DNA of 64,000 nt. Source: Arion vulgaris. Its lineage: Eukaryota > Mollusca > Gastropoda > Stylommatophora > Arionidae. The notes below the pieces were generated by a model, which saw only the letters and a list, made by a program, of their open reading frames with translations, ran no database searches and was not told the DNA's origin. The stretch is from the NCBI GenBank assembly GCA_020796225.1, contig CM036755.1:15129317-15193316 (forward strand). The letters run 5' to 3'. Shown piece after piece: positions 13,374 through 58,400 of the stretch. The number at the start of each line of letters is the position of its first letter. Position 1 is the stretch's first letter. A program made the position numbers and the translations under genes.

Positions 13374-13491
13374 CCACCATCACAATAAGAGAAGAATGGA
13401 AAAAATTGCAGACATTGAGCTAACAAGTATTGAAGCAACAGATCCAAAGCCAAGATCATTTGCCAATAATACTAGTGCTATTATAATACAG
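13374..13491 (+). CDS. NDRG: NDRG exon 1 (first recognised coding exon)
   Basis: A pyrimidine-rich tract ending in TCTAG precedes 13374, and the exon ends at CAG before GTATTT. I place the start at the ATG at 13396, giving [20 protein letters not shown] and ending SAIIIQ in phase 0. An in-frame ATG at 13366 exists but lies upstream of the predicted acceptor, so it would be used only if this is a true first exon. N-termini of this family are poorly conserved. The exact phase join to exon 2 and the acidic, polar N-terminus support the call. Confidence 0.8.
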
Positions 13492-16400
13492 GTATTTGAA
13501 CTGTTGTGTGCTTAGCTCATCCACATTTTCTACTGTATAAAAATACTGGCAGTTGTACTCGTTCTTCGCACAGGAATTTAGTTGTAATGTTGAACACTTT
13601 TAAAGTTACATTTGTTACCCTTTTTCCCTGGATCTTTCTAGCAGTTGTATCCGTTTTTCACACAGGATTTTTTTTCCCGATCCAGAAGCACTTGAGCTCT
13701 TCAGCTCGGTGCCATGGACATCGTAACCCTTCGGTTCGGTGCCACAAACACCGTAAATCTGGGGAATCTGTGGCTTTTTCTGCCATCCCATGGAATTGAA
13801 CCCGCACACACAGAGGGATAGTCACCCGTAGTCCAATTATTCTTTTCCGCTGATCTTCCAAGTCGTTCCCCTTTAGTTTCCTCATCCATCGCCTTTACAC
13901 TCCATCGGAGCTTGTAGTCAAGCCCCTAATAACTAATCTTTCCTCCTCTTGTCTCCATGTTTCTGGCCTTCATTTTTCTTATAATTCAACCGCATATCTC
14001 TAACAGCATTAGTTTCGATTTATCTACGAAATTATCATTTCCGAAACTTTTAAGTCCTAAACAGTGCGAGACTGAACATATTAAAGAGACATGCCTCGTC
14101 CCCTCAAAATCGGCTGCTTTCCCATTAATAACAATACATTTTCTCTCCATGCTTGGTGGGAAAACTTTGTCAGTTGACCACATAAGATTAAAATGTCGCT
14201 CATTCCGATTGGCAGAGAAACCTGATATACTAGAATTCCAGTGAAAGTTGACAAATAACAATTGGTAAATTGAATTTATTCAGATTATAAAGTGATCAGA
14301 TGTGTTAACCCTCTTATTCCTAGCCCTTCAGAAAAAGTTGCTACCGAATTCCCAGGGCAAGGGAAATAACCTAGCAACAATGTGAAGTGCTTGTGAAATA
14401 AAATTCATAACAAATACAATTTCTAATCAATATTTGTGATTTAAAGTCCAATATACAGTTAAATGGATGAGGTACTAGTTTGTAAACATGTATGTTGTCA
14501 ATACCATGCAAGTTGGATGTAAAAATTATACAAGTGAAGAAATAAAAAATGAATGATTATTGAAAGTATGTTGCCCTCAAAAATGTCAGTTTTATTGAGG
14601 ATAAATATAAATTGAAAGGTTGAAAAGCAATCTCCTTTACAGAGGTTGATTTTACATGTGGAGCAGCTATCACGTTTCCACACACCTTTGTGGTGCAGTC
14701 CTCATCTTCATTTAGAAACACTAACTGCGGGTCTGCATTCTGCCAAACAGTAGAGTTGAGTCGGTTGATGGTTGACATGAATGGAGTTTATCAGTCCTGC
14801 AGTTGCCTAGCCTGCATGTTTGTATGGGCATGAGGACCCTCATACAATCAAGACAGGTTCAACCTTGCACAAGTCCATATTGTCCTCATGGAACGAATTT
14901 GGAATTGACATTGAGGTACAAATATTTGCTGATACTTTCAAATCTATTTCTATCTATTTCAAATATATTTGACAAAGCAGGCACATTCAACGGTTTATCG
15001 GTAAACCAAAACATTCTGTAGTAAGGTAACTGGTTAGTTGACACATATAGTTTACATAAAGAAAGATATTGATGTAATGAAAAGAAACAGGTGTCCATGA
15101 AGGATCTGGATTTTTTGAATTTTCATAGAGCAAATGCGCTGGTTAGCTCCATCCAGTTCTAAAAAAATACCTCACTCAAAATGGCGAATGACGGTAATCA
15201 CAAATAGAGAATAATCTGAATCAATGTCATTTACAGAACCTGTTTCTTCACTAAATTGTTCGATATTGATAGTGCTCAGCTGTTGCAACTATTCTCTCTC
15301 AACTTTACAACCTGGGTGAACGGAGGGAAGTGGCTGTGTTCGCATCCATCGACAATCGCAATTCATCGTAACTAATAGTTATGTAAACCGTCGTAAACAC
15401 TAGAACTAGCATCGTATATTTTCGCACGCAAAACTTGAATTAATTATACATCAATCCGATTTATCCACGATATCACCGGCAAATTTTCCATCAACTGAAT
15501 CATAAATCACAAGTTTTCCAGAAAATATACTTTTTCAAAAATTCGCAGATACGAAACCTTCTAAAATGACAGCAGCCATTATCGGCAATGACATCAGGGC
15601 TAAATTTAGCGTGTCTATTCGCAAGGAAAGATATAGAAAAACGATTTAAAAAGGTATATACCCGCCGGGCGGTAACGGTCGCTATGGGTTTATATCGATA
15701 ACGGGCGCATTCGGCCAAGCTCTAATCCAGGGGTTCTCAATCTTCCTAATGTAGCGACCCTTTAATACAGTTCCTCATGTTGTGGTGACCCTCACCCATA
15801 AAATTATGAAATAATATTTATTTCTAATTATGATAAATATGTTTTTCGATGATCTTAGGCGACCCCTGTGAAATGGTCGTCGACCCCAAAGGGTCGCAAC
15901 CACAGTTTGAGAACCACTGCTCTAATCCATTTGGCCATTGGCCAAACATGTTGAAATACCAATAAATAGCGTCAACTATTTGCATAACATGTGCCTGGCA
16001 AGTTAAAGCATAGATATACCTTTTCAGTGTTACGCTTTTGATGGCCGTTTTGTTAAGTTAGTATTTAGATATAGAAACAAACTAATAGTTCAGTTTTATA
16101 ATTTGTACATCTTCCCATCTATGAAAGCTACCCACTTGCCTAATTTCAAGTCCTTAGAATGTTTAGATATCTTGAAACAATGGGAACAGACACACAATTT
16201 CATTAAGTTATTTATATACATATATGAGAGGCTGCTTTCAACAGTTATTCCAAGATATTTGATCGTTTTCCTTCTGCCAATGTCTTTGTTACACATGCTG
16301 ACATCTGGAGTAGATGTCCTCACTATGTGAGTGTCAAGTGAGAACCATGTCAGAGAAGCCGTTGCTTGATTCACATTCGCTTCAAACTCGCTGCAACTCG

Positions 16401-19400
16401 TGGAGGGAAAAATGCCATTTGTCTCCATGAAATGTGAAACTCTACGTATCATTCCATATTTCTTTTTGTCACTCTATATTTATATTTAAATTGAGTACTT
16501 GATCCTCTTTGGCAGGAAGATGACATTGAGACACCATATGGAAACATGCATGTGGCTATCCAGGGGGACAGAACTAAACAACCAATTGTTACATTTCATG
16601 ATATTGGATTGAATCGTAAGAAATGTTATTGTTCATGTCATGTATGCTTTGTGGTCTGGTCACTAATTAGGAAAGTCAGAATCATAAATTGGCAGTAAAC
16701 AGCAGCCATAAAGGTAGACAAACATATAGGAACTTTACAGCAGATTTTAAAAAAAGGCAAAGATGTGTATTATCACCAGATCTGTACATCGATTGAGATG
16801 GTGAGTAGTGCCTTAGGAGTTTAAAATATTAATAACTTGATATGCTGACAACACTTTTTTGATAACGATAAATGAAATAAAACTCCAGGAACTAACATAT
16901 ATGGTGTGGACAGAAAGTAACCACAAAGACCTAACTCTGAAAAGGAAGATGGCGAGTTATAATCATCATCAAAGAGGCAGACTCCATGAAAATGCACCAT
17001 CAAAGTGAATGGTATGATACTAAGACAAGTCCATCCTTTTAAATACATTGGAACCCTGATAACATGAGATGGTAGATGCAAATCAGAAATAAAGAGTAGA
17101 ATAGATCAGAAAAAAACACACCAGAAAACAAAAGACATTATGTGCAACAAAACATTGTCAGTTGAAATCACAAATTCTTCAGTGCTACATAGAGCCAATA
17201 CTGATGTGGATGCGAGTCATGAGCAATAAATAAACAGATACCAAAATCTCTGGAGGCCACAGAGATGTAGCTTTACAGAAGAATGCTATGAATCCCATAA
17301 CGAAAACACGTAAAACAAAGTACTATAGTTTTACAAAATACAGAAACAGTGACAATATACAACAACGTTTCGTCCCAAAGACCTTTATCAAGCAAATGAT
17401 ACAACAAGAATGACGGATTTCGAGGAACACTACAAATGGACGATTACATATAGAAACATTCAAACCTATCTAATGAAAACCTGGGAATAAAAACAAATAA
17501 CGAAATGAGTTAAACACAAAACTAGAAGTGGAAAAGAAGAGAAACAATTAAGTGAATATATATAACATATATATGAAGCAAATACACATATAGATTACAA
17601 GGCATGAGATGAGAAAGTACTAAGAAGCATAGGAATGTAATGTGTTGAGTCCAAGAGGTCACAAGGTGCCATACAACGAAATAAAACGGTTCTCTAGGGC
17701 AAATCGACTGCGATCATCAGAGGAACATGATCGGATGGTTGTGACCTGAACATCAGAAGCTCCTGAATGGCCAGTATCATTGAAATGGGTGGCTACAGGG
17801 GTGACAGAGCATTGGCGTATATCGATCAAGTGTTGGGCGAATCGGTCACTGAGCCTCTTACGGTTTCGCAATATATTGCACCGTTTACAGGTGATGGCAT
17901 AGATGATATTACGGGACTCACACATGAAACTGTCTTGAATGACATACGTGGCTTTTGGAAAAGAAACAGTGCGAATCTGTATTACATATGCACACGTATA
18001 GCAGCGTCGCGCCACACTAGATGGTTACCAAAGTGACTCTGGATATTAGGTTGAGGTGACTGTGCACCAACATATCCTTAAGACTTCTGTCCCGTCTGTA
18101 CGCCACCAAAGGATCGTTTTGGAAGACTGAACGTGTCTCAGGATCAGACTGAAGAATAGGGAGATGATGAAATAAGACCTTGGAACTAGGGAACTATGAG
18201 AGTGGAAAGTTAAGATAAGTTTAACCTGTCAGAATTGGAAGTTCTATGTTGGTTGGAAAGGGCCTCCTGGCGAGCAATGAGCTGAACCCGATGCATGGCA
18301 GATGTAAGCACATTCTCCAGGTATAGGCGCTTGCGAAAGAAATCGAGCATCTCGTAGGCTCTATTGAGAAAATCATTGTCCTCGCTACAGAGGCGACGAA
18401 GGTGTAAGAGTTGAGAGAAAGGTAAAGAGTCACGACAAGCCTGGGGATGGGAAGAGGTATACAGAAGAAAACTATGTGCATCAGTAGGCTTATAGTATAC
18501 TGATGTCGTGATGGTGGCTAGGCTGATGGTGATGTCAAGAAAGTTGACACAAGAGGTAGAGATGTGAGAGGTAAACCGAATAGCCGGATTGAAGACATTA
18601 ATGAAATTAATGAAGCGTGACAGATCGGCTTCAGGCATATCGGTAATTCCAATATAATTATCAATGTATCTATGATACACAGACAGAAGAGGGCCATCAT
18701 AGGTGTTCCATACTAAGTGTTCAAGATGACCCATGAATAGACAAGCATAACTGGGTCCCATTTTAGTACCCATGGCGACCCCACTGATCTGCTCAAAGAA
18801 CTGGTCATTGAACTGAAAAGAGTTGAGAGTGAAAACTAGTTCTGCAAGACGAAGAAGAGCCGAGGTGGAGACAAGTGGATGAGTTCTCCTGTCGAGAAAA
18901 AACTGGAGAACTTGAAGTCCGTCGAAATGAGGTATAGAGGTGTACAGTGAGCAGACATCAAAGGAGGAAGAGACGGTAAGTTCTGCCAGGCAACAACTCA
19001 ATGGAAGAAAAAACACAAAGTGTGGTTCGTATCTTTCAAGAATGAAGGTAGTGTGGTGACTATAGGATTGAAGATACTGTCAAGGAATTCGGAGATATGT
19101 TCCGTACGACAGGAGCAAGCAGAAACAATAGGCCTACCAGGATTGTTGAGTTTATGAATTTTGGGGAGCATATAGAATGCGGGTTTGCCCAAACAGCTAT
19201 CGATGACACACAGTGATGATGCACCGGTAGGAAGGTCTTTAGAGGCAATTAAGTTCTTAATTACTTTACAGACTTTACTATTGTTAGATAGTGTGACATC
19301 AGAAGAAATAGTTTTGTAAAACTGGGTGTCAAGTAGTTGGTTGTGGCCTTCCTGAAGGTATAAGTCTTTGCTCCATACAACTATGGCACCACCTTTATCA

Positions 19401-22400
19401 ACGGGTTTGATAACAATGTCATCACGTCGACGGAGGTGTGATAGAGCACGAAACTCGGACGGAGACATGTTAGAACGCCCTAGGCGTTTTGGTTGGAGCA
19501 GTCCAATATCGTGTGAAGTATTCTTGATGTAGAAATCAAGAGCGTTAGAGGCACCAGGTTTGGGTGTCCAATCGTGTTTGCGAGTGGAATACTTAGAGAA
19601 CATACTGGTTTCGTGACATTCTAGAGAGTCCTCCTGGTTCTGAAAATGGAATTTCAGCAAGGCACGGTGAAAACGGTTCACATTTAGAAGAGTAGAGTAG
19701 TGGTCAATGGTGGGTCGGAGAGGAACAAACTTGAGAACAAACTTCTCCCACACAGGTGGTTTGCATCCCCCAGACCTTCCTTATCCGACAGTGAGAGATG
19801 TGTTTTAAGTAAGGGTCTCAAGTTTGTTCCTAATTTCATTAATGTCTTCAATCCGGCTATTCGGTTTACCTCTCACATCTCTACCTCTTGTGTCAACTTT
19901 CTTGACATCACCATCAGCCTAGCCACCATCACTACATCAGTATACTATAAGCCTACTGATGCACATAGTTTTCTTCTGTATACCTCTTCCCATCCCCAGG
20001 CTTGTCGTTACCTTTCTCTCAACTCTTACACCTTCGTCGCCTCTGTAGCGAGGACGATGATTTTCTCGATAGAGCCTACGAGATGCTTGATTTCTTTCGC
20101 AAGTGCCTATACCCGGAGAATGTGCTTACATCTGCCATGCATCGGGTTCAGCTCATTGCTCGCCAAGAGGCCCTTTCCAACCAACATAGAACTTCCAATT
20201 CTGACAGGGTTAAACTTATCTTAACTTTCCACTCTCATAGTTCCCTGGTGAAAAAGGTCTTATTCCATCATCTCCTATTCTTCAGTCTGATCCTGAGACA
20301 CGTTCAGTCTTCCAAAACGATCCTTTGGTGGCGTGCAGACGGGACAGAAGTCTTAAGGATATGTTGGTGCACAGTCGCCTCAAGCCTAATATCCAGAGTC
20401 ACTTTGGTACCATCCAGTGTGGCCGTCGGCGCTGCTATACGTGTGCATTTGTAATACATACTCGCACTGTTTCTTTTCCGAAAGCCACATATGTCATTCA
20501 AGACAGTTTCACGTGTGAGTCCCGTAATATCATCTATGCCGTCACCTGTAAACGGTGCAACAAGGCCTATATTGGGGAAACCGTAAGAGGCTCAGTGACC
20601 GATTCGCCAACACTTGAGCGATATACGCCAATGCTCTGTGACCCCTGTAGCCACTCCTTTCAATGATACTAGCCATTCAGGAGCTTGTGATGTCCAGGTC
20701 ACAGCCATCCGATCATGTTCCTCTGATGATCGCAGTCGATTTGCCCTGAGAACCGCTTTTATTTCGTTGTATGGCACCTTCGACCTCTTGACTCAACGCA
20801 TTACATTCCTATGCTTCTTAGTACTTTCTCATCTCATGCCTTGTAATCTATGTGTATTTGCTTCATATATATAAGTTATATATATTCACTTAATTGTTTA
20901 TTGTTTCTCTTCTTTTCCACTTCTGGTTTTGTGTTCAACTCATTTGTTATTTGTTTTTATTCCCAGGTTTTCATTAGATAGGTTTGAATGTTTCCATATG
21001 TAATCGTCCATTTGTAGTGTTCCTCGAAATCCGTCATTCTTGTTGTATCGATTGCGTGATAAAGTCCTTTGGGTCGAAACGTTGCTGTATATCGTCACTG
21101 TTTCTGTATTTTGTAAAACTATAGTACTTTGTTTTTACGTGTTTGCGCTATTTTACCAAGTTTTACTGCAGTCTTCCCCTTTTCCGATATGAATCCCATA
21201 GACTGTTGATAAGTAAAGACACAGAGAAAACTTATCAGTTTAAGAAAGAGGCATGCATGGGATGAGAAAAGTAGGTTTTGAACACTTTGTGGCAACTGGT
21301 AAATCAACAGGAGACATGACGGAGGAAGACAGAGAGAATTCTGGACAGTTGTGGCTTCATGGCACTGAAAAGTATGCACATACAAACTGATATTCAGTGT
21401 CAAGGATAGGCGTATGTGGAGATCCATGATTGCTAACCGGCATGGCACAATATGATGAGAAATATAAAGGGAAATTGGGAAAGTTATCTTTTTGTCTCGA
21501 AAATATAATTAGTAACTATAATTGCTATAGTTGACTGGGTGATGCGAAAATGTTGCAGTGGCGAAACTGACATCGATTGGGTAGAAAATAATCAACTAGA
21601 AGATTTAGATTTTGCAGATGATATTGCCTTGTTAAGTAGAAACAACCAAGATATGCAAAGAAAAACAGACAATTTCTCATCTATAGCATCAAAAGTTGGA
21701 CTGCAGATAAGCTATGAAAAACAAATATAATGACCTATGGCAAGTAATGCAGATATCACACTGGAATCTAAAATGATAAAAATAACAGAGCAGTTCACCT
21801 ATTTAGGTAGCAATTTTGATTGCACAGGAAATGTTAAAAAGAAATTATGATACGAATTGGCAAAGCAACATCAGCTTTTAAAAGTCTAAATAAAATATGT
21901 AAACACGTAAAACAAAGTACTACAGTTTTACAAAATACATAAACAGTGACGATAAACAGCAACGTTTCGACCAAAGGCCTTTATCAAGCAAACAATACAA
22001 CAAGAATGACGAATTTGAGGAACACTACAAATGGACGATTACATGTGGAAACATAAACCTATCTGATGAAAATCTGGGAATAAAAACGAACAACGAAATG
22101 AGTGCAACACAAAAACCGAAAGTGGAAAAGAAGAGAACAATAAACAATATAGTGGATAAATGACACATATATGGAGCAAACACACATATAGATAACAAGG
22201 CACGAGATAAGACAGTACTAAGAAGCATAGGAATGTAATGCGTTGAGTCCAAGAGGTCGCAAAGTGCCATAGAATGAAATAAAGCGGTTCTCCAGGGCGA
22301 ATCGACTGCGATCATCGGAGGAACATGATCGGATGGCTGTGACCTAGACATCGTCAACTCCTGAATGGCCAGTATCATTGAAATGAGTGGCCACAGGAGT

Positions 22401-25400: not shown

Positions 25401-28400
25401 AGATACCACATGCTTTCAAGGATTCTTCAGCTACAATGAAATGCAGCCAATCCTTCGTCATTTCTGTGTGTATCACATTAATGCTCCAGGACAAGACGAT
25501 GGCGCACTGTATCTCAAGCCAGAGTATGTACTCTGTAACAAATATTTGTTGGAGGTGTTTAATATGTGGTTTATTTCTTTAGTTGATGGGGCATGCTTAA
25601 TAGGCAGCCTATAAAATAAAAGTGTTAGACACAGCTTTATTTGAGTGATGAAATATGGAACCAGTATTTCTTAGCTGCTAAGATAATTTTCAGCCAGGGT
25701 AATGTTTGTTGGTTAACAGAACCGACTTGAAGTCACTCCTAGCAGACTCATCATTTCTCCTTCTGCAGAAAGTATACTGATGGCTTTTGTGATTCGCAAG
25801 TTAGACATACTTCATTTATCCTTTCAATTTTCCAACGTGTGCAACATGTAATAAAAACTGCAGTTTTAGTGTAGCAGCAGTATCATTCAACTTCTACTTC
25901 CATTGTTCTCAGACATCGACTTGCTATGTCTATTTCTAAAGTAGTTACTGTTCAACTAAAGTTTATGTACAGCTTATCTTGGACTGGCCATGTGTGTTTC
26001 CTCTGTTCATTGAATGTTTGCAATATAGATATGAGAAATACATCATGCATGTCATCTTACTGGTGCCACATGTGCCTACATCAGCAGGGCTTATCTTGTA
26101 CTTGTTAAACAGATGGTACCTCAGTCTATTGTGCCCAGTACATAACTCTTGCTACTTGCTTTTCTCTACTGGACTGGTAGTATGCATCATCTTTTTGATG
26201 GCCATGGTGTTCTCTTGCGCATTTGTCCTTGTAATCCATTTTTATCCATGCCGTTGTTTCCACATATTCTCATAGGTCATACTTTCTGTCTGGCAACCTG
26301 CTATCTTCCTTTGCTAATAAGCCTGCTGCACTGTTGTTGCCAGGTATACTGCAGTGGGATGGTACACACTGTATTGCCACTCTTGAAATAATTGTGCAAA
26401 TTTGGTGTAGTGTTGCGTGCACTTTCTTAAAGTTATCTCCTTGAGTCTTCAGGACAGTGATTACTGATAGTGCATCAATCAAAAATACATTTTCTTGTAC
26501 ACATTTTTCAAAAATTATGGCCTGTCTCTGCTTGTAGCTTTCTCTGCTTGTAGGACCTCGACCTCTGTAGTTGTTGTATCTTCCTGTAGCTATTGTCAGC
26601 TTTCTATGTTTCGTACTGTGAAGGATACCCCTCCTTGATTTTCAGTAGCATTTGTTACAGACCAGTCATGTGAAGTGTTTCTCTATGTAATCATTTGTCA
26701 AGAATTTGTTTTCTTCATGTGTCTGGTGGTTTCTACCTACTATCTCTGTGATATTCTCGTTGAACTCTGGGAATTTACCTTTCAATACTTTCCCTATGTT
26801 GGTATTTCTGAGTGGTTTTGGTGTGATTTCAGCCCATGATGATTTTTCATCATCTTGGTTGTTGCTGCAAAGTTGGTTCATTTTAATTTATCCCTTACTA
26901 GCCCATAGTAAGGGGTACATTTATTCTGTGGTACATTGGGTGGTCTTCTAGTCTCGTGAACTTTTCTTCTTGGTTTAGCATTCAGCTGTCTGTCCTCCTT
27001 TGGCTGCAGACTTGTTACCTATCTCATTGCTCCTGTAATAATTCTCATATTTTCTCTCTCTGCGATCCCATTCTCATATTTGAATTCTGTACATGGTTGA
27101 TTTTATTAAAAGTTGGATTGTCTATGCAGCAATTCCTTAATCCAAGGTAGACCACATCAACTTAGTGGTCATTGAATTACTTTAGTATGTCTCCCATTTC
27201 CATACCCAATACATCAACTATTTGCACATTCAATGCCAGTCCGTCTGCACTTTACTTGATAAATCCTTAAAACTACTTTATTTGTTCATTCTTTTCATAA
27301 TAGAATCATTCACTGATCTTACTCTTTTTGGGTCTCTGGCACTCCTTTGTCACCGTTGCTCTGCCCATACAGGACATATCCACTGTATCATTCCACCAAG
27401 GTCCAAGATGATTGGACAAAGGGAGTTCTGGTGGTATTTCATCTGGCATTTTGATGCAGAATGTGCAAAGAATATCATGGATTTTGTTTTTATATTTTGT
27501 AAAACTACAGTACTTTGTTTTTACTTGTTTCGCCAAAGAGGATGGCAGCATTAGAGATAAGGTGTCAAGCCGGGACAACATTCACTGTGTCCTTTGGTCT
27601 AGAAGTCATTATTTTTTGGGGCTGCTGTCATTCTGAATAGACAAGCCTGTATTGAGTAGTTCTGGCTCAGTGACATCTCTTGTCTATTTGTTGTGGTATT
27701 TATCCGCTCATTTTAAAAAAATCTAGCATTGAAATTCATATATGTAACCATTTGCTAGGCAGTTCTGACAGTTCCACTATACTTTTGTTCCCAACTGACT
27801 GTCTCTTCTCTGTCTTCGTGCCTCTACTGAAAGCATTGATAGCAGAGCAGTCTCCATAGCTTGTGTGATGATTCTCATGTGTTGTTGAAATTTATATAAT
27901 TATAGTGGAAGTATATTGTCACCTTGGTAGAACCACCATACCAACGCTGCAGAAAAAGTTATACCATGTGGTCCTCTCATTCACAGTGGTGAGTCTTATC
28001 TAACTATCATCCAGTCTCTCATCATGTAGGTCATCATCATCATCAAATAGCTTGTCCTGAGCAGAACCCTGCCACCCCAACAGTCCTCCGGAATTTCTCT
28101 CATATGCCAGATGTCCTGCCTCTGCAGCTATCATGTTCAAACCATCAGTTACATCCTGAATCCATCTTCTCCATGGTCTTCCTCTTCTTCTCTTTGCCGG
28201 TATGCATGCTTCCATGATGGTCTTCTCAGCCCTTCATGTCTTTTTATATGTCCAAAATATCTCAATTTTCTCTTTCTTATTTGTAGCATCAGCCAGTTTT
28301 CTTTGATTTTGAGTTCTCTCTGGATAGATCTATTTGTTCTCTTCTCTGTCCAAGATATACAGACTCTTCTGTAACACTTATATTCAAAATTCATCATGTA

Positions 28401-43400: not shown

Positions 43401-46400
43401 AAGAGGCCAGTGGGGCCTACGCAACAAGTAGTTTGACAATGGAGGTTCAGCGGTTATGGAGGCGGTGAAATGGTTGGCGTCTCACAACTATACTGTCGTG
43501 TTTTCATACTCTATGAGCATGATTCGTAAAGTCGAATCAGGAATGGTGAGACGCAACTGGATGGAGGTACTAGTACAGACAATGGTCAGAGAAATCACCT
43601 TCATTTTTGTCCCTAGGCACGTAGGAGTTAGGGGTAATGAACGAGCTGATATAATAGCTGGCTTGGCTACAATATCATTAGGAGATGCCATGGATCGAAA
43701 TGACATTCTTCAAGCACTGAGTCTTTCCGAACAGAGGAGTTTCAGGGCTGTGAATCCCATTTAGTGACCAGATTGAGAGAGATGGTTGTTAATATTGGTG
43801 CTGCCGAAAAGAACGACATACTAAATATGCAAAGAGATTGATTAATCAACATCAAACTCGCGTGCTGGATCTGCTGAGGCAGAGATCGGAGCATCTATGG
43901 ACATGTCCGGAGTGCTATGATGATAGTCCTAATATAACTGATATTACAAATTTGTTCTAATCAACAAATTTTGCAAAACACTTGATCGGGCAACACTGTA
44001 AAAAAGAAATAACTTTGCTGTAGATTAAAAACAAAAATTGGATCAGAAAGTGTTATGTAAACTTGGCACTATTTGTACAAGAAATAATTCTTGATGCAGT
44101 GTGTGTGAAAAGTGAGATATTTTAATAGAGAATCATAGACATGCCATGCGGTAGTTAGTATAGAATATGTCCCTAGTTGTACAAGCTACTTGTAGTACAC
44201 ATATCGTACTTTAATATTCAGATGGTGCAGATTAAATTATTGTGAATGAATTGTCTGTACAGCAGCTTACTAGTGTTTATGTTTCAGATTTGTGTACCCC
44301 ACAATGGACCAGTTGGCAGAGGCAGTACATCATGTTGTTGAGCATTATGGGTAAACCACTATACATTCTTACTGCACACTACTTAAAATTATCACTGAGT
44401 TATTTTCATAAATATTTCTAGCACAACTCATGCTTAATATTAGTATAATATTAATATTAGTATTAATATTAGAAAGATGGAAAAACTACTTTGAAGAGCT
44501 ACTTAATTGTGATAAAACCTATGGGAGAATAAACTGCTATAACACAGAGGAAGAAATAGAGGAATTAGAACCAGAAATACTACTAGCAGAAGTAGAAAAT
44601 GTAATAGTCGGCACCAAAACACAAAGCAACGGGCACAGATGATTTACCTTTTTTTTTTTTTTCTCCGATCCAGAAGCACTTGAGCTTTTCAGCTCTTTGG
44701 CTCGTGCCATGGACATCATAACCCTTCGGTTCGGTGCCACGAACACCGTGAATCTGAGGAATCTGTGGCTTTTTCTGCCATCCGCGGGATTGAACCACAC
44801 ACACAGAGGGATAGTCACCCGTAGTCCAACGCGCTATGAACACGCTGGGTAGACGGGCAGATGATTTACCTGCAGAAGCCATCAACGCAGCTGGAGAGGC
44901 AGGTGCAAAATGGGTTAGACGAATCTTCCAAGTCGCATGGGAGAACCAAGAAACACCAGAAGATTGGCAAACAGCAATAATCACACCAATTTGGAAAAAA
45001 CAAAGGCAGCAAGAAGGAATGTAATAACTATAGGGAATCTCACTACTAAGTCACATAGGAAAAATGTATGCTAAGATCATTGAAAAAGACTAAGACCAAC
45101 AATTGAAGAACAACTCTCAGAAGCACAGATGGGTTTCAGACGAAATAGAAGCTGTACCGATGCAAATTTCACATTAAGACAACTGACGGAAAGTGCAATA
45201 GAACATAATAAGACCTGTAGTGTGGCATTCATAGATCAAGAAAAGGCCTTCGACAGAGTCGATAGAAACAAACTATGGGATTGTCTAAGAAAATATGGAA
45301 TCAGCAAACATCTTATCAAGGTCTGCAAGAGTTTATACATTTCAAATAAAAGTTACATAAGAACAAAAGCCAGAACATCAAAAACATTCACAGTAGACTC
45401 AGGAGTTAGACAGGGATGTGTGCTCTCCCACTGCTGTTTATAACATACATGGACAACATAAGTAGAGAAGCAGGAATAGGGAAAGAAAATAATATTTCAG
45501 AACATTTATTTACAGATGACCAAGTACTGATTGCAGAAAACGAAGAATCTCTCCAGAACCATTTGAGCTTAGTTAACATTAAGGGTGAGGAGTACAACAT
45601 GAAAATAAATATAATAGACAGAGACAATGGCAATAAGTAGACAACCAGAAAACCTTACAATAAAACTCCAGAACGTAGACATAAAACAAACAATTGAGGC
45701 CAAATACTTAAGAGCAATTTTCACAGCAGATGGAAGTATCAATAGCGAAATCAGCAATTGTTGCACAAAAGCTAACCAAGTACTGGGACAGTTAACACCA
45801 CTGTTGTCACATAATGAGATACCGCTAACAACTAAAGCAAATCTTATAAGAACGATTTTCTGGCCAACACTATGTTACCAGTGTCAAACATGGCCAATAA
45901 CAGCAGCTAATGAGCGGAAAATCATAACGACAGAGATGTGTCTTAGAAGAGCTGCAGGTGTGACAATAAGAGACAGAAATGAAGAAATCAGAAGAATGGA
46001 TGTGAAACCAGTCATGCAATTCATAAAAGAACAACAGATTAAATGGGTTGGACACCTAACAAGAATGCCCTAGTATTGCCTACTACAGAGAGCCACACAG
46101 AAAAAGTATAATGAGTACAAAGCAAGAGGAATACCACACAAAAGATGGAGCGACGGTATCAAGAACAGCATTACGAAAATGAATATCAGCTTACAACATG
46201 CCTTAAAACACATACGATCACTACGCACAACCCCCACCATACACACACACACTTCTATAAAGAAGTAAATGGTGGAAAAGAAGAAGACAATTAATGCTGA
46301 TCCATTATATTAGGAGTAAACCTTCAATTAAGTAAGGAAAGGAACTGATAGGAAAATAAAGATCAGAATACTAAGAACATACATATTCCCAGTGGCAACG

Positions 46401-49400
46401 TATGGATGTGAAACATGGACATTTAATAAATCAGTGTAAAAACATATGCACTTTTGAGCATAAGTGTTACAGAAGAGTCTTCAGTATATCATGGACAGAG
46501 AAGAGAACAAATAGATCTATCCAGAAATAACTCAAAATCAAAGAAAACTCGCTGATGCTACAAATAAGGAGAAAATTGAGATATTTTGTACATATAAAAA
46601 AGACACGAAGGGCTGTAGAGGATCATCATGGAAGAAGAGGAAGACTACGGAGAAGATGGATTCAGGATGTAACTAATGGTTTGAACATGACAGCTGCAGA
46701 GGCAGGACAGCTGGCCTATGAGAGAGAAATTTCAGAGGACTATTGGAGTGGCAAAGTTAGGACAAGTTATTTGATGATGATAAAACCTTAAAATAAGTAC
46801 TCTTTTTTTAATTCGAGTCCATGAAACGGGTGAGCAAAGTCATTGTTACAGAGTTGTGCTATGTTTTTAAAAGAAACTTATAACATGTAATACAACTTGA
46901 ATGTATCCTACATTGTTATATATTTTATTATCACATGTTGATAGGAAGCTATTTTAAAATACATTTTTTAACTACAATTCCAATTCTACTTTTTCAATTC
47001 CAGTACCTGGTGCATACATTTTTTTTCACCCTGTCGCCCACACTTCAATATATATTTTTACTGACGTTTCCCTCTTTTACACCTCCTACCTTGGTGGTGG
47101 TGACTACAACACATCTGTGTAGTATCTAACATCATTTTGGCTGTGAAACTCTATTGCGTAATCACGGAGGATCCCTGCCTACATGCACAAACTTTGTGGC
47201 GAGGTAGAGAATCGATTTTCATGTTAAGACCCGTTATACAGCAGTGATAAAGCTCATCAGCACCTTAAGCGTGGCTTAATTTGATCAAAACATCGCTCTA
47301 ACCACAGTAACAAGAACCCTTGCCGGTGCTACAGAGTCTCTGTTTAAGAGAGATCGGAACTCATCGAAGTGTAATGATGATGACGCAAATGTCCATTTTG
47401 TTAACACTGGAGGCGAATTCATGTTTTTGTTGTACATACTTGTGCTTCTTAACGTATTATTTATTATTTTTAAAACTGAGTGCTTTTACCTGAAAGCCAG
47501 TGTGGATTATTTTTTTTTATGTGAAACCACAGAAATTATATTTACTGCCAGACAGCTGCAAGAAAAATACCATAAAAAGCATTGTTACATTTTCTTCACA
47601 TTCAGCAACCTGATACAGATATTCAACAGAGTCTGTAGAGAGGGTAGGGTCTCTTGAAAGTCATGGGAAAGTACGTCTGCCTAAGAAATTAATCACAGTA
47701 GTATGGCAACTGCATGACACGATGCAAATCAAGAGTTCATCAGAACCATTTCCTATCTCAAATGAAGTAAAAACAATTAAATGTACTAGCACTTACTGTT
47801 CAGTGTCATGTTCTCTGCTATACTGACTGATGGGTTCAGAGATGGTGACTTAGGAATCGAATCTATATCAACTATCCAAGCGGTGGACATTTTTTTTTTA
47901 CCATAAGTTCCAGCACTTCAGAAAAAGTTCCTACTAAATTCTCAGGGCAAGGGAAATAACTCTTCAACAATGAAAAGTATTTGTGCATTAAAATTCATAA
48001 CAAATACAATTTGCAATCATTATTTGTGATTTAAAATTCAATTTACAGTTAAATGGATGAGATACTAATTTGTGAACATATATCTGGCCCTTTTTTTTCG
48101 TCTTTACAGACGATCAATTGGCAAGTGTTTCACTGTGACAACTTTGAGTTTTCACTTCTCTCTTGTCTTTCAGCTCATCCCTAACTCTATCTTCAAAAGA
48201 TTCTGCACTTTTGCGCAATGTTGTTTTCCATATATCTTGATCATCAGCCAGTTTTTCCCATTTGCTGGGACCGATAGAAAAGTTATTCATTGAGGCCTTG
48301 CAGACATCTTTAATTCTGAGCAGTGGTCTGCCTTGGTGCCTCTTCCCCTCTGAAAGTTCACAGCATAACATTTGTCCATTCTTCGCACATGCCCTAGCCA
48401 TCTAAGTCTTCTACTGCTGAGCATGCCCATGATAGAAGATAAGTTTGCACGTTGCAGTACTTCAGAATTGGTAATCTTGTCGCACCACCTGATGTTCATA
48501 ATCTTGCGAGACATCGAAGGTGAAAGATGTTAAGTCTTGTCTTGTGTAGGCTGTCCATGTTTCTGAGTCATTTAGTAAAGAGCTAATTACACAGGCTCAA
48601 TATATCTGAATCTTTGTCTGAAATGTTAATTTTGTGTTGTCCCACACTCTCTTTGATGTTTGCCGAATGTATTAGCGCTGCCTATTCGAGCGTTGATTTC
48701 TTCATCAAGAGAAAAGCTGGCAGTGACTATGCACCCATGATAGTAGAATTTTTTAACTGGGGTTAGATGGTTACCATTTAAAGTGATATTTGTTAATGTG
48801 TTATTTCCCTGACAAAGCACGTAAAACAAAGTACTGTAGTTTTACAAAAACAATGACAATACACCAACATTTCGACCAAAAAGGCCTTTTTCAAGCAAAC
48901 GATACAACAAAAGTGATGAATATCACGGAGCACCGCATATAGACTTTGACAAAGATATTACAACGGTTAAAAATGAATGAAAATAAGTGACTAAAAACAA
49001 ATAACAAAGTAAATACAGAAAACTATAAGTGGAAAAAGAAGAGAAACACTAAAGAAACAAAAAAAAAATCAAGTAAATATATGACTCATATACATTTAAC
49101 ATATACACATATAAAATATAGAGCATGAGAAGAGAAAGTACTAAGAAGCATATGAATGTAGAGCGTTGAGTCCATGAGGTCGCAAGGTACTATTTCTCTC
49201 TTTGCGATCCCTCAGCAAGGTACCATTTAAGGAAATAAAGTGATTCTCCAGAGCAAATTGACTACGATCATCAGATGAAAATGATCGGATTGCAGTGACA
49301 TGGACGTCGCGAGCACCCAAATGGTCAATTCCATTGAAATGAGTGACTACAGGGGTCACAGAGCATTGGCGTATATCGCGTAAGTGTTGGCAGATACGGT

Positions 49401-52400
49401 CACTGAGCATATTGCCTGTTTCGCCGATATATGCCGTAGAACATCGCTTGTAAGTCATATCATAGATTATATTTCGGGACTCGCGTGTGAAACCATCTTC
49501 AATAACAAACGTGGCTAAAGAAAAGATACAGTACGAGTCTGTATTACATAAGCCACATATTGCAACGTCAACGCCACATTGGGCAGTGCCAAAATGACTG
49601 GATATTGGACTTAAGGCGACTGTGTACCAACATATCCCTAAGACTTCTGTCCCGTCTGTAAACCACCAAAGGATAGTTGGGGAAGACTGAACAGGTCTCA
49701 GGATCTGACTTAAGGATAGACAAATGACGGAATAAAACATTTTTAACCAGTGAACTATGGGGGTGGAAAGTTAAGACAAGTTTTACCCTGTCAGAGTTAG
49801 CAGTCCTATGCTGGTTGGTAAGGGTCTGCTGGCGAGTAATTTTCTGAACTCGATGCATAGCAGATAGAAGCACCTTCTCTATTGGCGGTTGCGGAAGAAA
49901 TCAAGCATCTCGCGAGCTCTATAAAAAAAATCATCGTCCTCGCTGCAAAGGCGACGAAGGCGCAAGAGCTATGAAAGTGACACAGAATCACGACAAGTCT
50001 GGGGATGGGAAGAAGTATAAAGGAGAAACTATGTGCATCAGTAGGCTTGTAATATACTGATGTAGTGATAGTGGATAGGTGTATAGTGATAGTAATGTCA
50101 AGAAAGTTGACACAAGCAGTAGAGATGTGAGAGGTAAAGTGAATAGCAGGGTTGAAAACAATGAATTAGATGAAGCGTGACAAATCAGCTTCAGGCATAT
50201 CAGTAATGCCAATACAGACATCAATGTATCTGTGATAAACAGACGGAAGAGGGCCATCATATGTAGTCCACACTAGGTGTTCAAGATAACCCATGAACAG
50301 ACGAGCATAACTAGGTCCCATTTTAGTGCTCATGGCGACCCCACTGATCTGCTCAAAGAATTAGTCATTGAACTGAAAGGAGTTGAGAGTGAGAACTAGT
50401 TCTGCAAGATGGAGAGCAGAGGTTGACACAAGTGGATTAGTTCTCCTATTGAGAAAGAACTGGAGATCTTTAAGGCTGTCGGAATGAGGTATAGAGGTGT
50501 TCAATGAGCACACATCAAGGAGGAAGAGACTCAATGGAAGAAAGACTAAGTGTGTCTTATGTTCGTATCTTTAAAAAATGAAGTTAGTGTGGAAACTGGG
50601 ATTAAAGATACTGTCCAGGAATTTGGAGATGTGTTAAGTGGGGCAAGAGCAAGCGGAAACGATAGGCCTGCCAGGATTGTTTAGTTTATGAATTTTGGGG
50701 AGCATATAAAATGCGGGTTTGCCCAAACAGCTATCGATCACACAGAGTGATGATGCACTAGTGATGGAGAATCGTTTTATTTCTTTATATGGTACCTTGC
50801 GACCTCATGGACTCGACGCTCTACATTCCTATACTTCTTAGTACTTTCTCTTCTCATGCTCTATATTCTATATGTGTATATGAGTCATATATTTACTTGA
50901 TTTTTTTTTATTGTTTCTCTTCTTTTTCCACATAGTTTTTCTGTATTTATTCGTTTTTAGTTACATATTTCCATTTTTAACCGTTGTAATATCTTTGTCA
51001 AAGTCTATACGTGGTGTTCCGTGAGATTTGTCACTTTTGTTGCATCGTTTGTTGATAAAGACCGCTTTTGGTCTAAACGTTGCTGTGTATTGTCTTTGTA
51101 TTTTGTAAAACTACAGTACTTTGTTTTACCTGCTTCGCCATTCTACATAGTTTTACTGCAGTCGCCATCTATATTGACTTTATTTCCCTGACATAAAACC
51201 ACTGTTTTGGTGACACTTATATTCAGAGAAAACAGGTCGCATGCCCTGGCCAAATTATTGTGAACATGTATGTTGTTTGTTAATTCCATGTAAGTTAGAT
51301 GTGAAAAATTATTTAAGTGAAGAATAAAAAAATAAATGACATTATCGAAAGTATGCTCTATGCCCACATATATCAAGTAAATTGAAAAGTTTAGTATTCA
51401 AATTCAGATACGATAAAAAAATTAATCAACTGCTTTCTGCAGATGATCAGTGCCTGATACACCAAAGAGAACAAGTACCTACAACATATTGACAAAATAA
51501 TCCTGTGGATAGAAAAGTCAAAACTGTCCTTTTTTGTGATGATTACTTAAATGGTTTGATTTATGGTTATCTGAGTGGTCTTTACCTTTTTTTTATTTTT
51601 GATCTATCTAATATTGATTTATAATAGTGATTCTTGTCAAGGTTTACAAATGTTTTATATGTTTTATAAATGGAACTTTACTGTGTATTCAAGTATTTTG
51701 TTTACAGTGGTATGTCTTCATTGCAGAATGAAAACTTTTATTGGATTTGGTGTTGGAGCAGGTGCAAATATATTTGCAAGATATGAGGTGAGTATAACAA
51801 TTTATCTGAATCATTGTTTTAGCTGTTTTGTTTGGTCTTCAAGATTTTAACATTATTTTTTTAAAGAGACAATTACACAAGCATAGTCACCCACACAGCC
51901 ATGTGTATTTCCCAGTATACTATAAAATAGCAAAAATGTAAGTCTTGCACTCAATCCTGTGTTACTTAGCCCTTTAAGCCTCAGTAATTCAGAAAATGTC
52001 CCTACTGAATTCCCAAGGCAAGAGAACAATCTCAGCAACAATGATCAGTGTTTGTGAAATAAAATTCATAACAAATACAATTTTTAATCAATATTTGTGA
52101 TTTAAAGTCTAATTGACAGTTAAATAGATGAAGTACTAATTTGTGAAGATGTATGTTGTTAATTCCATGTGTTAGATGTGAACAATTATACAAGTGAAGA
52201 AGTGAAAAAATGAATGGTTGACAAAGAGCACCCCTGTTGCACTCCCATTATCACATCAAATGATGGTTACTCTGACCAACACTGTATGTGAATTGGGCAT
52301 ATAGACTTTAGCTGATTGTTCATATTTTGTTGGGAATTAAGTTTGCTTTCATAATTGTCCACATTTCTGTATATGCTGTCAAAAGGCTAATTTTCTCTAT

Positions 52401-55400
52401 ATATGCTGCTAAAAGGTAAGCCTTTGCCTTGCGTTACAAAGGTCGTTGGTTTGAATCCGTATTGTTGGTCCACGAGTGAATTTTTTACAGAGACCCCTAA
52501 GATTGCTGCCAGAGATACAGGGTTCATGCTTTGTGCAATACTCTTGACAGGGGCGTGCCATTTCTCGGAGTGGGGCAGAGCCAAATGGGATAAGACCCGG
52601 AGCAATGAAGTCAATCCTTCTGCTTTAGACCTTTTTAGACTAGAACGTAGCTAAATTTTAATAGATATGCAGCTGAATTGTCTCTCTTATCTGACACATT
52701 ACAGCTGAATTGTCTCTTTTATCTGACACATTGCATCTGAATTGTCTCTTTTATTTCACACATTACAGCTGAATCATCATGAACAAGTTGACTCACTCAT
52801 ATTAGTCAATCCAACAGCCAGCAGAAGTGGTTGGATTGAGTGGGGATATCAAAAGGTAAGTGTAATGTTAGTCTACTAACTAAAGTATATAGCTGATAAA
52901 CTTTAAATATTCAAGACAAATTTAAGGTACCATCAATTCAGTCCACTGGAATTGTTACTGCTGTACAGCATCATATTTACATTGATTTATCTCTATTTTA
53001 TAATGAATGGTTTTTCATCATCATCATGACATGTTGTGTACTAAAAAACTGGTTAGCGCATTCTGTGTCACAATGTGTTCACCCGTCAAGAAGGTCAGTG
53101 TGCGGGAGGGGTCACTTTCCTATGCTCAGGGACATTCTATCGAGCAAAAGCAAATTCGGTAACAGAGATAAGTGCCAGATCGATTACACCATCTGTGTCT
53201 CATGTCTGGGCGCTAATTGAGTTGAACCGATATTCAAAATAGGTTAGAATTTAGTAGAATCTGACGCAAAGTGATACCATATCTATTATCAGTATTTTCT
53301 TTTGATCAAATATTGAAGTCGCCTGCTATGAGCAACTTTGCTCAGATCATCAAGAGTTCTTGGAAACAAACCCAGCAATCTGCAATAAAGAGTTGGTCCA
53401 CATAGTCATATACATTATAGATTCGCCATACTTGATTATAAATTGTTACCAGAATTCCATATAACTCCACACATGCAGTTAAGAGTCATATGTACCAAGG
53501 TAGTTGTGGGGAATATCATTTTTCACATAGATAGCCTGTCTTCATTCTACGCCAGCTTCACCAGAATCGGATTAACATTGAAATCCTGGACACTAGATGG
53601 CTATATTCTGTTGAAAATTGGTTTCTTAAATCATGAAGACGTTGAAATCATAAACAAGCTTCTGTAGGATTTGTGCTCCTTGTTTTGCACAACAGCAACT
53701 CTAGTAGCCAATGCATAGACTTGAGGATGAGACTTGTCTTTTTATTTTTAATTGTCTCTGTCTTCATCTTGTCTTTTACATCCACTTCTCGACCTCATCT
53801 GTATGCATAGTTTCCTTGCTCGATCTGCTGGAGGACCAGGCGAGAGTGTACAAACTTTGTAGCACCGGCTGGATGCCATTGATACAAAACAATATGAACC
53901 TAAAAACAAAAAGCATTCAACATTATATTTGGCGAAAAAGTATAAATTGCCAAAATAAAAACCAGTGTGTATTGTTGTTTAGACCTAAAATTGTAAATCA
54001 ATTTCTTGTAAGAATAATTTGTAACTAGATGTTAAAATGTCTATACTAGGTTAAACGCAACTAAAAAATAACCAACTGTAGAAAAGGCAAATATTTATAC
54101 TAACAAATAGTTCATCATCAAGTACCTTGTCCCTTCCGAACTTGGCTCCCATGACAGCAGTCCTGAAAAACTCTGTTCTGTGCAAGTTGGCAGGCATCAG
54201 CAGCAGTCTTTCTCAGATCGTCAATGACATCTTGCACCCATTGTCATCTAAGTCTTCCTCTCATTCTTCTTCCAGGCACCATTCCCTCCAAAATTAATTT
54301 CTCTAGGCCCTCATGTCGTTTGAAGTGTCCGAAATATTGAATTTTCCTTGTTTTTATGCTCTTCAATAACCAACTCTCTTTAATATCAAGCTGTTGCAGA
54401 ACAGAAGCATTTGTTCTTTGTTATAATTTAACAAAGTTATAATTTTTCTTTAAACCCAACATATTACAGTGCTTTATTCTTATTTCGTGTAGTATGCTGG
54501 GAGATTGTATATGATAGAAATTAATGCTGATTGCCCAGAGCAGTTGCCATGCATATGCAGGTCATATTTTTGTTTCTCCCTAATGACAAAAAAATGTTGA
54601 CCTTGCAGAGACCTAGACCATGTATATGACCAGCATTACCACAGAGTTGACCTCTTATCACCTGTGTTGTTCAATATTTACACAGCAAATGTAGCCAACA
54701 TTCAGCTGACCCTTTTGAGTCAGACATTGACTTGTGCAGATGACATATTTATAGAACTGAATCAGACAGACAAGAAATTACCTAAGTCATTCAAGGGACA
54801 TTGCATACCAGATCGCATTGGTGAAGGGAGTCTTGCTCTCAGGTCAATCCTGAGAACTGTTTTGTTGTGCTTTGTGAATAATTCCATAGTCACTCAAGTT
54901 TGGCCTATACAGAGTTACCATTGGTTGGGTATCTGGCATTGGGACAGGCTTTGCTAGCTATCTTTCAAACATGTTGAACAAAGGATACAGCATTGCAAGT
55001 ATTGTCTTGCAGCCCTTGAGATTAAGGTAGCTACACACCTTGAGCATAGACTACTTGTCCTCTTGTTCCATGAACTGACCTATGTCCATGGTAGATTATT
55101 GACTGGACATCCTCATGAAATTACGATCACAATGTAAAATCGAATCTATTCAGAATGAAGGCATGCGCATAGTTCTTTACTTCACCACAGATACTCCTCC
55201 CATTGTAAAGTTGAGATGTATGCTTTACATTGTCACTACTTTCCCATCATGCTATCATCCAAACCAAAGTTGTTGCTTTTCAGATTTACCATTTCAAGTC
55301 AGTGCATTTCTTCATCTATGTTTTATGTGAGTTATTGTTATCAATTTTCAAAGCAATGTTTTATTGTAATATTTCTTTTATCACCAAATTTGAGTAAAGA

Positions 55401-58400
55401 TGTTATATTTCACAAAATGTTGCAATAATATCAACAGATGAACTCGTGGTATTTGTTTAGCGGACAGCTTACTTCCTTCACAGAAGAATATCTATTGTGG
55501 CATTGGTTTGGGAAGGTAAGTATACTTCACATTTGTTCATTTTAAACCTTTCTATGACCTATGTTCTCAAGTACTCTATTCAGGATAGAGAGAGAAGTAA
55601 TCTATTCAGTTTGAAGCAGTATTATATCTCAAAGCAATCTATCCATAATATCAAGCACTCATTTATTTCCATTGTTAAATATATCCTGGACTAAGACTTT
55701 AATATTGACTTGCTTTTGCCATTAGTAAAACCAACCAAATTGTTTGTTGAAGAAGGGTAAATCATCACAGATAAAATGACTTCTGTTGAGTGTGACTATA
55801 GCACAGATAAAATGACTTCTGTTGAGTGTGACTGTAGCACTGATAAAATAACTTCTGTTGAGTGTGACTGTAGCACTGATAAAATGAAAAGAAGTCGAGA
55901 GGAAGGCTATGAAAAATTTGGATAGATGGTATCACATAATCTTGTCAAAAAAGCAAAAATATGTATCGCCCAAGCCACTAGAGCAGTGTAAGACAAAGAC
56001 AGAAAAGCACAACACTGGGCAACAACCCTGTAACTGTGATGACAGAAGAAAAAGAAAAAACAATGACCATTAAATATATTTGTTTTCCTATAGAAAACCC
56101 GTTGGACTAATCATGATCTGATTCACACTTATAAGGAGTACATCAAGACTATCAATGCACAGAATCTGGCACTTTTCATTGAGACATATCTCAAGTAAGA
56201 AATGTACCCATACTTTCTTATGTTAGTTATCTTTGTTTTTTTTCCTTTCATGTGTCTCTTGATTTATTATATCTGAACTATTTCATTGTCTTCATCACCC
56301 CCTAATCATCATTTTATGTCACTATTTCATTGTCTTCATCATGCCTAATCATCATTTTTATGTCACTATTTCATTGTCTTCATCATTCCTAATCATCATC
56401 ATTTTTATGTTACTATTTCATTGTCTTCATCACCCCCTAATCATAATTTTTATGTCACTATTTCATTGTCTTCATCATGCCTAATCATCATTTTTATGTT
56501 ACTATTTCATTGTCTTCATCACCCCCTAATCATCATTTTTATGTCACTATTTCATTGTCTTCATCATGCCTAATCATCATTTTTATGTTACTATTTCATT
56601 GTCTTCATCACCCCCTAATCATCATTTTTATGTCACTATTTCATTGTCTTCATCATGCCTAATCATCATTTTTATGTTACTATTTCATTGTCTTCATCAT
56701 GCCTAATCATCATTTTTATGTCATTATTTCATTGTCTTCATCATGCCTAATCATCATTTTTATGTCATTATTTCATTGTCTTCATCACCCCCTAATCATC
56801 ATTTTTATGTTACTATTTCATTGTCTTCATCACCCCCTAATCATCATTTTTATGTCATTATTTCATTGTCTTCATCATGCCTAATCATCATTTTTATGTT
56901 ACTATTTCATTGTCTTCATCATGCCTAATCATCATTTTTATGTTACTATTTCATTGTCTTCATCATGCCTAATCATCATTTTTATGTCACTATTTCATTG
57001 TCTTCATCACCCCCTAATCATCATTTTTATGTCACTATTTCATTGTCTTCATCACCCCCTAATCATCATTTTTATGTCACTATTTCATTGTCTTCATCAC
57101 CCCCTAATCATCATTTTTATGTCACTATTTCATTGTCTTCATCACCCCCTAATCATCATTTTTATGTCACTATTTCATTGTCTTCATCATGCCTAATCAT
57201 CATTTTTATGTCATTGTTTCATTGACTACGTCTTTGTCTGAGATTTAAACGGAAACAAATATTAACCATTTTATTTTTTGCTAGACGAGAACATTAAAAC
57301 ATGTATTAAGGAACAAAATCAATGCATTTGAAATGGGTGATACTGAAAAATTTCTCAGAGCGCCCTGGACACAGAGTAGTGAATAAAACAATGACATACT
57401 GCATGATTTAAATATCGTAGAGCATTGGTTCATAGACAACTTGTCCCGGAAAAAGTATTTCAGTCACATTAAATGACATAGTGGTTTGGACAGAACAGTA
57501 ATGGAAGGCATGGTTCCTGGGGGTTGAGGCAGGGGAAGACCAAGAGGAAGGTGGCAGCAGGACATCAAAGAAACCTTGAAGATGACTTTAGAAAAGGCAG
57601 GAGAAATAGCTAGAGACAGTTTTTCAGACAGACTGTGATGAAAGCGACATTATGCGAGTGATATGCTACTTAATGATGATGATCCTCTCTTACAAGTTAA
57701 TATAATGTTCATCCCTTCAGTTGTTCATGAATGGTATTATGGAAACAAAGTGTTTACTTTAATAAAATGCGCATAGTTTGACCATCAAGTTGCATTTGTA
57801 GTTGAATTAAGTTTAACATCAAGACAAGAGACAGTGGATGTTGGAGGTCCTGAAATTTTGTTGGTTATATTTTTGATCAGTGCATTTCAACCCTTGATAA
57901 AATAGGTGCCACCTTAGAACAATCTGTAACTTCAAATAGATGTATAACATTATTTTAACAAAAATGGTTAGCTGTGATATCTGGTCATATGAGTCTTATA
58001 GGTCACTCATCTGTCATCAGTATGTCAGTAACTTCAATGAAATCTATGATTTTCTTTAGGTCATCTGCAGAGATCCTCAGGTTTGAAAGTAACACTGTCT
58101 GAGTATGTGATATTTTCTCGTTCTCTTACCTGTAGGCAGACTGCCTTAAAAGATATCAAAGTAAAACAACAACTTGTCATACCTTGTGGTGTGTTGGCGA
58201 AATACAGTGTTGAGCATCATTTATTCTTTTGCTGTGAATTTTGCCATCAGTTGCTGTGTGCCCGCGGTCTTTGTTGAAGGATCATCTGCTCGCAGGGGTC
58301 AAAGGTGAATAGGGACAACGCAGTGCCAGGATTAGTGAGCTGGCACTAATCAAGATCCTACCCCACCTCCACGGGGTGACCCTGGTAACAGACAACCGAT

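Follow-up and report, generated by a model that had tools for sequence, protein, structure and literature searches.

SPIN (SPACE INVADERS) transposons and their non-autonomous SPIN_NA forms are known from tetrapods, and SPIN is a prominent example of a transposon that moved from one phylum to another. TcBuster and other hAT elements of the Buster group have nnnTAnnn target sites and a transposase related to that of SPIN, and they constitute separate families. SPIN was reportedly found by Gilbert et al. in 2010 in the pond snail Lymnaea stagnalis, a heterobranch. In the insect Rhodnius prolixus, SPIN_NA_12_RP and SPIN_NA_13_RP are SPIN MITEs that, as we propose for the element described here, were horizontally transferred into an invertebrate (PMC11614815, in excerpt). 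The heterobranch snail Biomphalaria glabrata carries ~1,000 copies of a hAT element with significant identity to SPIN, and the excerpted text reports no intact transposases among the DNA elements of this species (PMC5440852). That element and the one in our genome come from different genomes and are likened by description, so that one or two invasions would both fit. Among the papers listed in literature searches for molluscan SPIN there was no report other than PMC5440852, and others may exist; the excerpts of PMC11008031, PMC13155389, PMC5331948 and PMC5791352 contain nothing on SPIN in molluscs. Because a SPIN-like hAT has already been reported in Biomphalaria, SPIN in a gastropod is already known and the genome analyzed here adds one more host to those known, and is not the first (PMC5440852, in excerpt). 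The original prediction, that a copy at this locus would document or add to the invertebrate hosts of the family, holds insofar as a host is added, but gastropod SPIN is not new. The record extends the known host range and opens no new kind of system.

The window, by which we mean the whole stretch of 64,000 nucleotides analyzed, contains a 192-bp non-coding element at 15728–15919 which, judged from its sequence, is almost certainly a SPIN (hAT) MITE, derived from horizontally transferred SPIN and shrunk by two deletions. It lies on the forward strand in the orientation of our working SPIN_NA consensus and belongs to the short form of the family. The element starts with CAGGGGTTCTCAATCT and ends with AGTTTGAGAACCACTG, and inverted-repeat analysis places its terminal inverted repeats (16 nt each, 88% complementary) at 15728–15743 on the forward strand and 15904–15919 on the reverse strand. 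The termini are of the type CAG(T/G)GGTTCTCAA..., which we take to be the defining terminal letters of SPIN. Directly outside them stands CTCTAATC, with a central TA, at 15720–15727 and again at 15920–15927. The literal direct repeat around the copy is 11 nt long (GCTCTAATCCA) because the element's own terminal bases lengthen it; since the family ends in CAG...CTG, we read the duplication as 8 bp. Thus, the MITE with an exact 8-bp duplication that had been predicted is present, with CTCTAATC on both sides of 192 bp with 16-nt inverted ends. Apart from the element's own inverted end, other matches in the window to the long form of the family do not rise above chance (E 0.018 or worse, compared with 0.062 for a reversed control).

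With the window copy as query, all 40 scored places (out of 1711 candidates, the window copy included) matched nearly the full element at 87–100%, and the element is therefore not a chance resemblance. The 23-mer CAGTTCCTCATGTTGTGGTGACC occurs exactly 254 times in the genome and its reversed control not at all, which supplies the many genomic copies that had been proposed as a check; among the ~100 places listed, all lie on the large contigs C1–C8, each of which is represented. A 23-mer would survive in 31% of copies at a divergence of 5% and in 15% at 8%, from which we estimate by extrapolation that roughly 800–1,700 copies carry the CAGTTCCTCATGTTGTGGTGACC end. Two main forms are found in the genome, a long one of ~345 bp and a short one of ~197 bp. 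Fifty of the 254 copies were examined; 34 are closer to the long form and 16 to the short, and 30, of which 17 are long and 13 short, approach the full length of their form. Additionally, three copies (L047, L054 and L059) have another, GTGGGCG-rich middle between the same ends; this third structural variant is SPIN-like and possibly a further deletion derivative.

The short form consists of long-form positions 1–80 joined to 232–344. In the window copy, the left arm corresponds to long-form positions 1–80 (15728–15807, forward strand, 92.5% by blastn) and the right arm to positions 232–344 (15813–15919, forward strand, 90.3% by blastn), which include the long form's junction near position 250. 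We infer this junction from the point at which matches to fossil transposase copies end (see below). Because the short form appears to carry the long form's own junction, the order of derivation would be autonomous element, long form, short form. Compared with the 198-bp short-form consensus, which was built from 47 rows with three copies counted twice, the window copy matches at 182 positions, differs at 10 and is missing 6 bases.

As a reference for SPIN_NA, we used a working consensus, which we assume to represent the family; it was written down before any long copy was seen and was first aligned with eight short-form copies. The long-form consensus (6 copies) shares 309 of 311 aligned bases with this reference, in an alignment that has a single gap of 33 bp, and the window copy agrees with the reference at 172 of 192 aligned bases. 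Because the middle was written down before it was seen, the match of 309/311 is a fair test of the working sequence, not of the label. The gap corresponds to 33 bp that the gastropod long form has near the junction in excess of the working SPIN_NA consensus, and this difference may be an error in that consensus. The gastropod also differs from tetrapod SPIN_NA in having the further-deleted ~197-bp form (16/50 copies). An identity to SPIN of about 80% or higher over the full length had been named in advance as support, and both figures exceed that value, as measured against the working consensus in place of a Repbase or Dfam one.

To analyze target sites, we fetched 90 places and removed three that were fetched twice and two (L029 and L030) that have the window copy's flanks, leaving 85. 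Both ends are intact in 60 of these, and the remaining 25 were dropped. The flanking 8-mers agree at six or more of eight positions in 51 of the 60 copies (chance 0.4% per copy, with equal base use), comprising 18 exact duplications, 25 at 7/8 and 8 at 6/8; nine copies agree at five positions or fewer. TA occupies positions 4–5 in 18/18 exact duplications and in 49/51 of those with at least six agreeing positions. An earlier count on 57 copies, in which the ends were allowed to slide, gave 17 exact duplications, 16 of them with TA. The copies are thus found at 8-bp nnnTAnnn targets like those of SPIN (hAT, Buster group), a rule which we take to be a trait of SPIN and the Buster group. Two copies, L085 and L086, have a left flank in common and may be one insertion that was duplicated.

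One copy, L053, runs on from the MITE left end into transposase-like sequence, and L075 extends this stretch. Used as a query, the transposase-like stretch yielded 45 matches (40 of 126 candidates scored); those that cover a 44-bp end only, 12 in number, were not counted as transposase. Five larger transposase loci are present, on C1, C4, C7, C9 and C12, and the three that were read are all broken by stops and frame changes. Long-MITE positions 1–249 adjoin the fossil transposase in L075 at 92%, with positions 153–249 matched in L099 and 213–248 in L098. In the fossil autonomous copies, the end corresponding to the MITE left arm lies downstream of the transposase stop; the long MITE's other end, of ~90 bp, was not found in the three fossils read. 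The Pfam domain Dimer_Tnp_hAT scored 19.2 bits on a broken fossil copy (cut-off 21.4), none of the four pieces of the first fossil matched a Pfam family, and PF05699 is present in several more distant full-length homologues. A search of solved structures gave no match.

Joining the pieces of L098 with X produced a query that found 765 proteins, 120 of which were listed. The first eight listed are from tetrapods (pit viper, slow loris, rattlesnake, toad and corn snake) and are named ZBED8-like, ZBED5-like or FAM200B; among the matches listed, a tunicate protein is at rank 31 and a scorpion protein at rank 61. Over the whole broken query, identity to the top tetrapod proteins is 58–60% (E down to 9e-197). 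When the viper protein was compared with the three fossils by tblastn, eight shorter stretches (20–133 aa) were 74–92% identical and four longer stretches that cross breaks (220–312 aa) were 55–66% identical. Eight tetrapod proteins (snakes, loris, toad, gecko and bat) are 86–92% identical to one another, and two frog proteins and one rodent protein are 77–86% identical to members of this set or among themselves, with 90% identity between the two frogs.

We constructed a 35-row tree from the snail transposase and 34 proteins chosen by hand among the 120 listed. The snail transposase falls in a 19-row clade with 100/100 support, together with snakes, loris, gecko, bats, four kinds of frog or toad, a rodent, two unnamed proteins and a scorpion (45% of columns). 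From the list of hosts, we take the tetrapod proteins of this clade to be SPIN. The main fork of the clade is without resolution, some inner groups (frogs, rodent) are resolved, and two other frogs are found just outside it. An autonomous hAT relative, proposed in advance as a further check, thus exists in the form of broken transposase genes which share the MITE's end and fall in this clade.

Several of these relatives display features of their own. The scorpion protein (P0061, Centruroides sculpturatus, 274 aa) groups within the SPIN clade and has 83% identity to that of the pit viper over 272 aa, making an arachnid host of SPIN possible. The tunicate protein (P0031, Clavelina lepadiformis) stands for a cluster of 15 sequences that is ~78% identical to the viper protein, falls in a group next to the SPIN clade and may be a relative that is still intact. 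The slow loris protein (P0002, Nycticebus coucang) has ~95 extra N-terminal residues foreign to the transposase, which to us resemble the histone chaperone NASP and are either a captured exon or a prediction error. Searches with SPIN words had no matches in viral contigs or in prokaryote genomes; the viper protein gave one pattern match in viral contigs and 37 in prokaryote genomes, with no relative in either.

The strongest of the competing explanations is that the window copy belongs to a different hAT/Buster-like MITE family, native to molluscs, which shares only its ends with SPIN. Ends of the type CAG...GTTCTCAA are common to many hAT families, and the 192-bp form is without the middle of the working SPIN_NA consensus. 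However, the long form in the same genome has that middle, and the linked transposase lies within the tetrapod SPIN-like clade; we consider a native family very improbable. Similarity confined to the inverted ends, the outcome held against the prediction at the outset, did not occur, as body and linked transposase also match. Ends, body and transposase all agree with the SPIN-like hAT originally proposed. Relative to the working reference, the gastropod element has its ends, its body, its 8-bp duplication with central TA and its transposase clade in common with tetrapod SPIN and SPIN_NA.

The host assembly comprises 1.52 Gb in 3227 contigs, with the window on a contig of 91 Mb. Contigs C1–C23 are at least 26.8 Mb where given, C24 is at least 16.2 Mb and C25 at least 3.4 Mb, compared with 1.74 Mb for C27; from these sizes, 24 to 26 chromosomes are likely. 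A haemocyanin beta-sandwich family, which we regard as mollusc-type, is matched 46 times in this genome, almost always on C14 and C24, but in none of 14 control genomes, a weak control in that those named are bacteria and archaea. The NDRG exons of the window, when joined, encode a 204-aa protein that shares 90% identity with NDRG3 of Aplysia californica, 81% with Littorina and 71% with oyster, in a comparison that covered proteins of up to ~360 aa. Because of the haemocyanin family and the 90% identity to Aplysia californica NDRG3, we identify the host from its genes as a heterobranch gastropod, in line with the mollusc predicted. Two other contigs are of a different kind. C27 (1.74 Mb; L010 and L011) is bacterial-looking, has a COX1-type gene with parts in different frames and is perhaps an endosymbiont. 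C228 (40.5 kb; L009 and L012) is a protist-like mitochondrial contig whose COX1 has in-frame TGA and is seemingly split between frames, and it is probably from a parasite or symbiont of the sampled animal. When a cytochrome oxidase gene of the host itself was sought, these bacterial-looking and protist-like copies were the only ones found.

The presence of such other organisms in the assembly (bacterial-looking C27, protist-like mitochondrial C228) lends some substance to the idea that the SPIN copies are vertebrate contamination. Against this, exact 23-mer matches are found on each of the large contigs C1–C8 among the places listed, near-perfect target duplications flank 51 of 60 copies, the window copy has on either side NDRG3 exons encoding a protein with 90% identity to that of Aplysia, and the same insertion with the same flanks is found on two small contigs. 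Contamination is thus hardly credible: the copies are on contigs of chromosome size, in a genome that also has mollusc-type haemocyanin, and the refuting outcome envisaged with the original prediction did not arise.

Host NDRG3 is only 40–46% identical to the four fish NDRG proteins listed in the comparison that covered proteins of up to ~360 aa. The dead, unconstrained snail transposase is closer to that of a snake than the working, constrained NDRG3 is to that of fish, as is characteristic of horizontal transfer, and on these protein comparisons the similarity goes far beyond vertical descent. Old vertical inheritance of SPIN in animals would accommodate the scorpion protein within the clade and the tunicate cluster beside it, but the non-coding consensus is 309/311 identical to the working tetrapod one, the copies are only ~5–6% from their consensus, and the main fork of the clade is without resolution. 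Because these three observations misfit hundreds of millions of years of neutral decay, we give vertical descent scarcely any credence.

Under horizontal transfer, an autonomous SPIN element would have entered the gastropod lineage, by a route and in a direction that we infer. Loss of the transposase gene would then have produced the ~345-bp MITE, which retains ~250 bp of one end, as seen in the fossil copies, and presumably ~90 bp of the other. A second deletion, of ~150 bp, would have given the ~197-bp form, the class of the window copy. SPIN transposase, attached to the inverted ends, would have made a staggered cut at an nnnTAnnn site in repeat DNA of the NDRG3 intron and placed the element there, and gap repair would have left CTCTAATC on both sides. 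The transposase genes would have decayed afterwards and, because of this decay, the window copy is probably fixed in place.

Among the 30 near-full-length copies, median non-CpG divergence from the consensus is 5.8% for long copies (2.3–19.3%, the highest being a structural variant) and 5.0% for short copies (1.9–7.6%), in a sample picked by an intact 23-mer, which favours young copies. At one molluscan rate of 1.645e-9 changes per site per year (PMC9392753, in excerpt), a divergence of 5–6% gives an age of perhaps ~30–35 million years, with an uncertain rate and a sample that leans young. It is possible, if rather doubtful, that SPIN invaded this gastropod separately from the freshwater snails ~30 million years ago, as an autonomous element whose own MITE series then arose in the host. 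If true, this would mean, with the scorpion protein in the clade, that SPIN spread through land invertebrates much as through tetrapods. With its long and short MITEs, an empty site and fossil transposase genes, the genome offers datable and countable material for testing whether snails acted as reservoirs, as recipients or as dead ends, and for placing the origin of the MITEs before or after transfer.

The window copy is located in the first coding intron of NDRG3, between coding exon 1 (13396–13491, 81% identity to Aplysia NDRG3) and the next coding exon (16516–16615), which starts 596 bp past the element. Further exons are found at 25403–25523, 44288–44350, 51727–51787, 52769–52855, 55438–55515, 56094–56194 and 60901–60966; all are on the forward strand, their splice ends were picked by eye, and the final part of the gene was looked for within the window and not found. 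The NDRG intron of the original prediction is thus borne out by comparison with Aplysia NDRG3, with coding exons on both sides. A copy in the first coding intron, 596 bp upstream of the next exon, could have been co-opted as a regulatory element, but its 10 substitutions and 6 missing bases relative to the short-form consensus (~5%) are like those of other copies and nothing seen distinguishes it from them, leaving co-option most improbable and no host function indicated.

To look for an empty site, we joined the two flanks as a query and obtained 41 matches (40 of 380 candidates scored). Most of these cover the left flank (15561–15719), a repeat present at many other places, and from this we judge that the SPIN copy is in older repeat DNA. 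One of the 41 matches, L100 on C7, spans the insertion point and reads ...GGCCAAGC-A-TCTAATC-CATT..., with a single target copy TCTAATC and without the element. Its similarity to the joined flanks is 89% over 91 bases and 72% over 224 columns, and we read it as an empty site in a paralogue elsewhere in the genome that is only 72% alike over the 224 columns. Three other places (L102–L104) share the left flank only and one (L101) the right flank only. Additionally, the small contigs C3194 (L029) and C368 (L030) contain this insertion and the flanking DNA around it, marked by many small deletions, and are probably unpurged alternative or poorly corrected copies of the window locus.

Other repeats are also found in this region. 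An 11-nt perfect inverted repeat, AAAAGGTATAT, lies at 15649–15659 and 16014–16024, outside the SPIN copy on both sides; because it brackets the copy from outside, SPIN may have entered another inverted-repeat element to which the flanks belong. Lastly, open frames at 17659–20666 and 49141–49873, within NDRG3 introns, have what we take to be reverse-transcriptase-like and GIY-YIG-like motifs and are likely Penelope-like elements.
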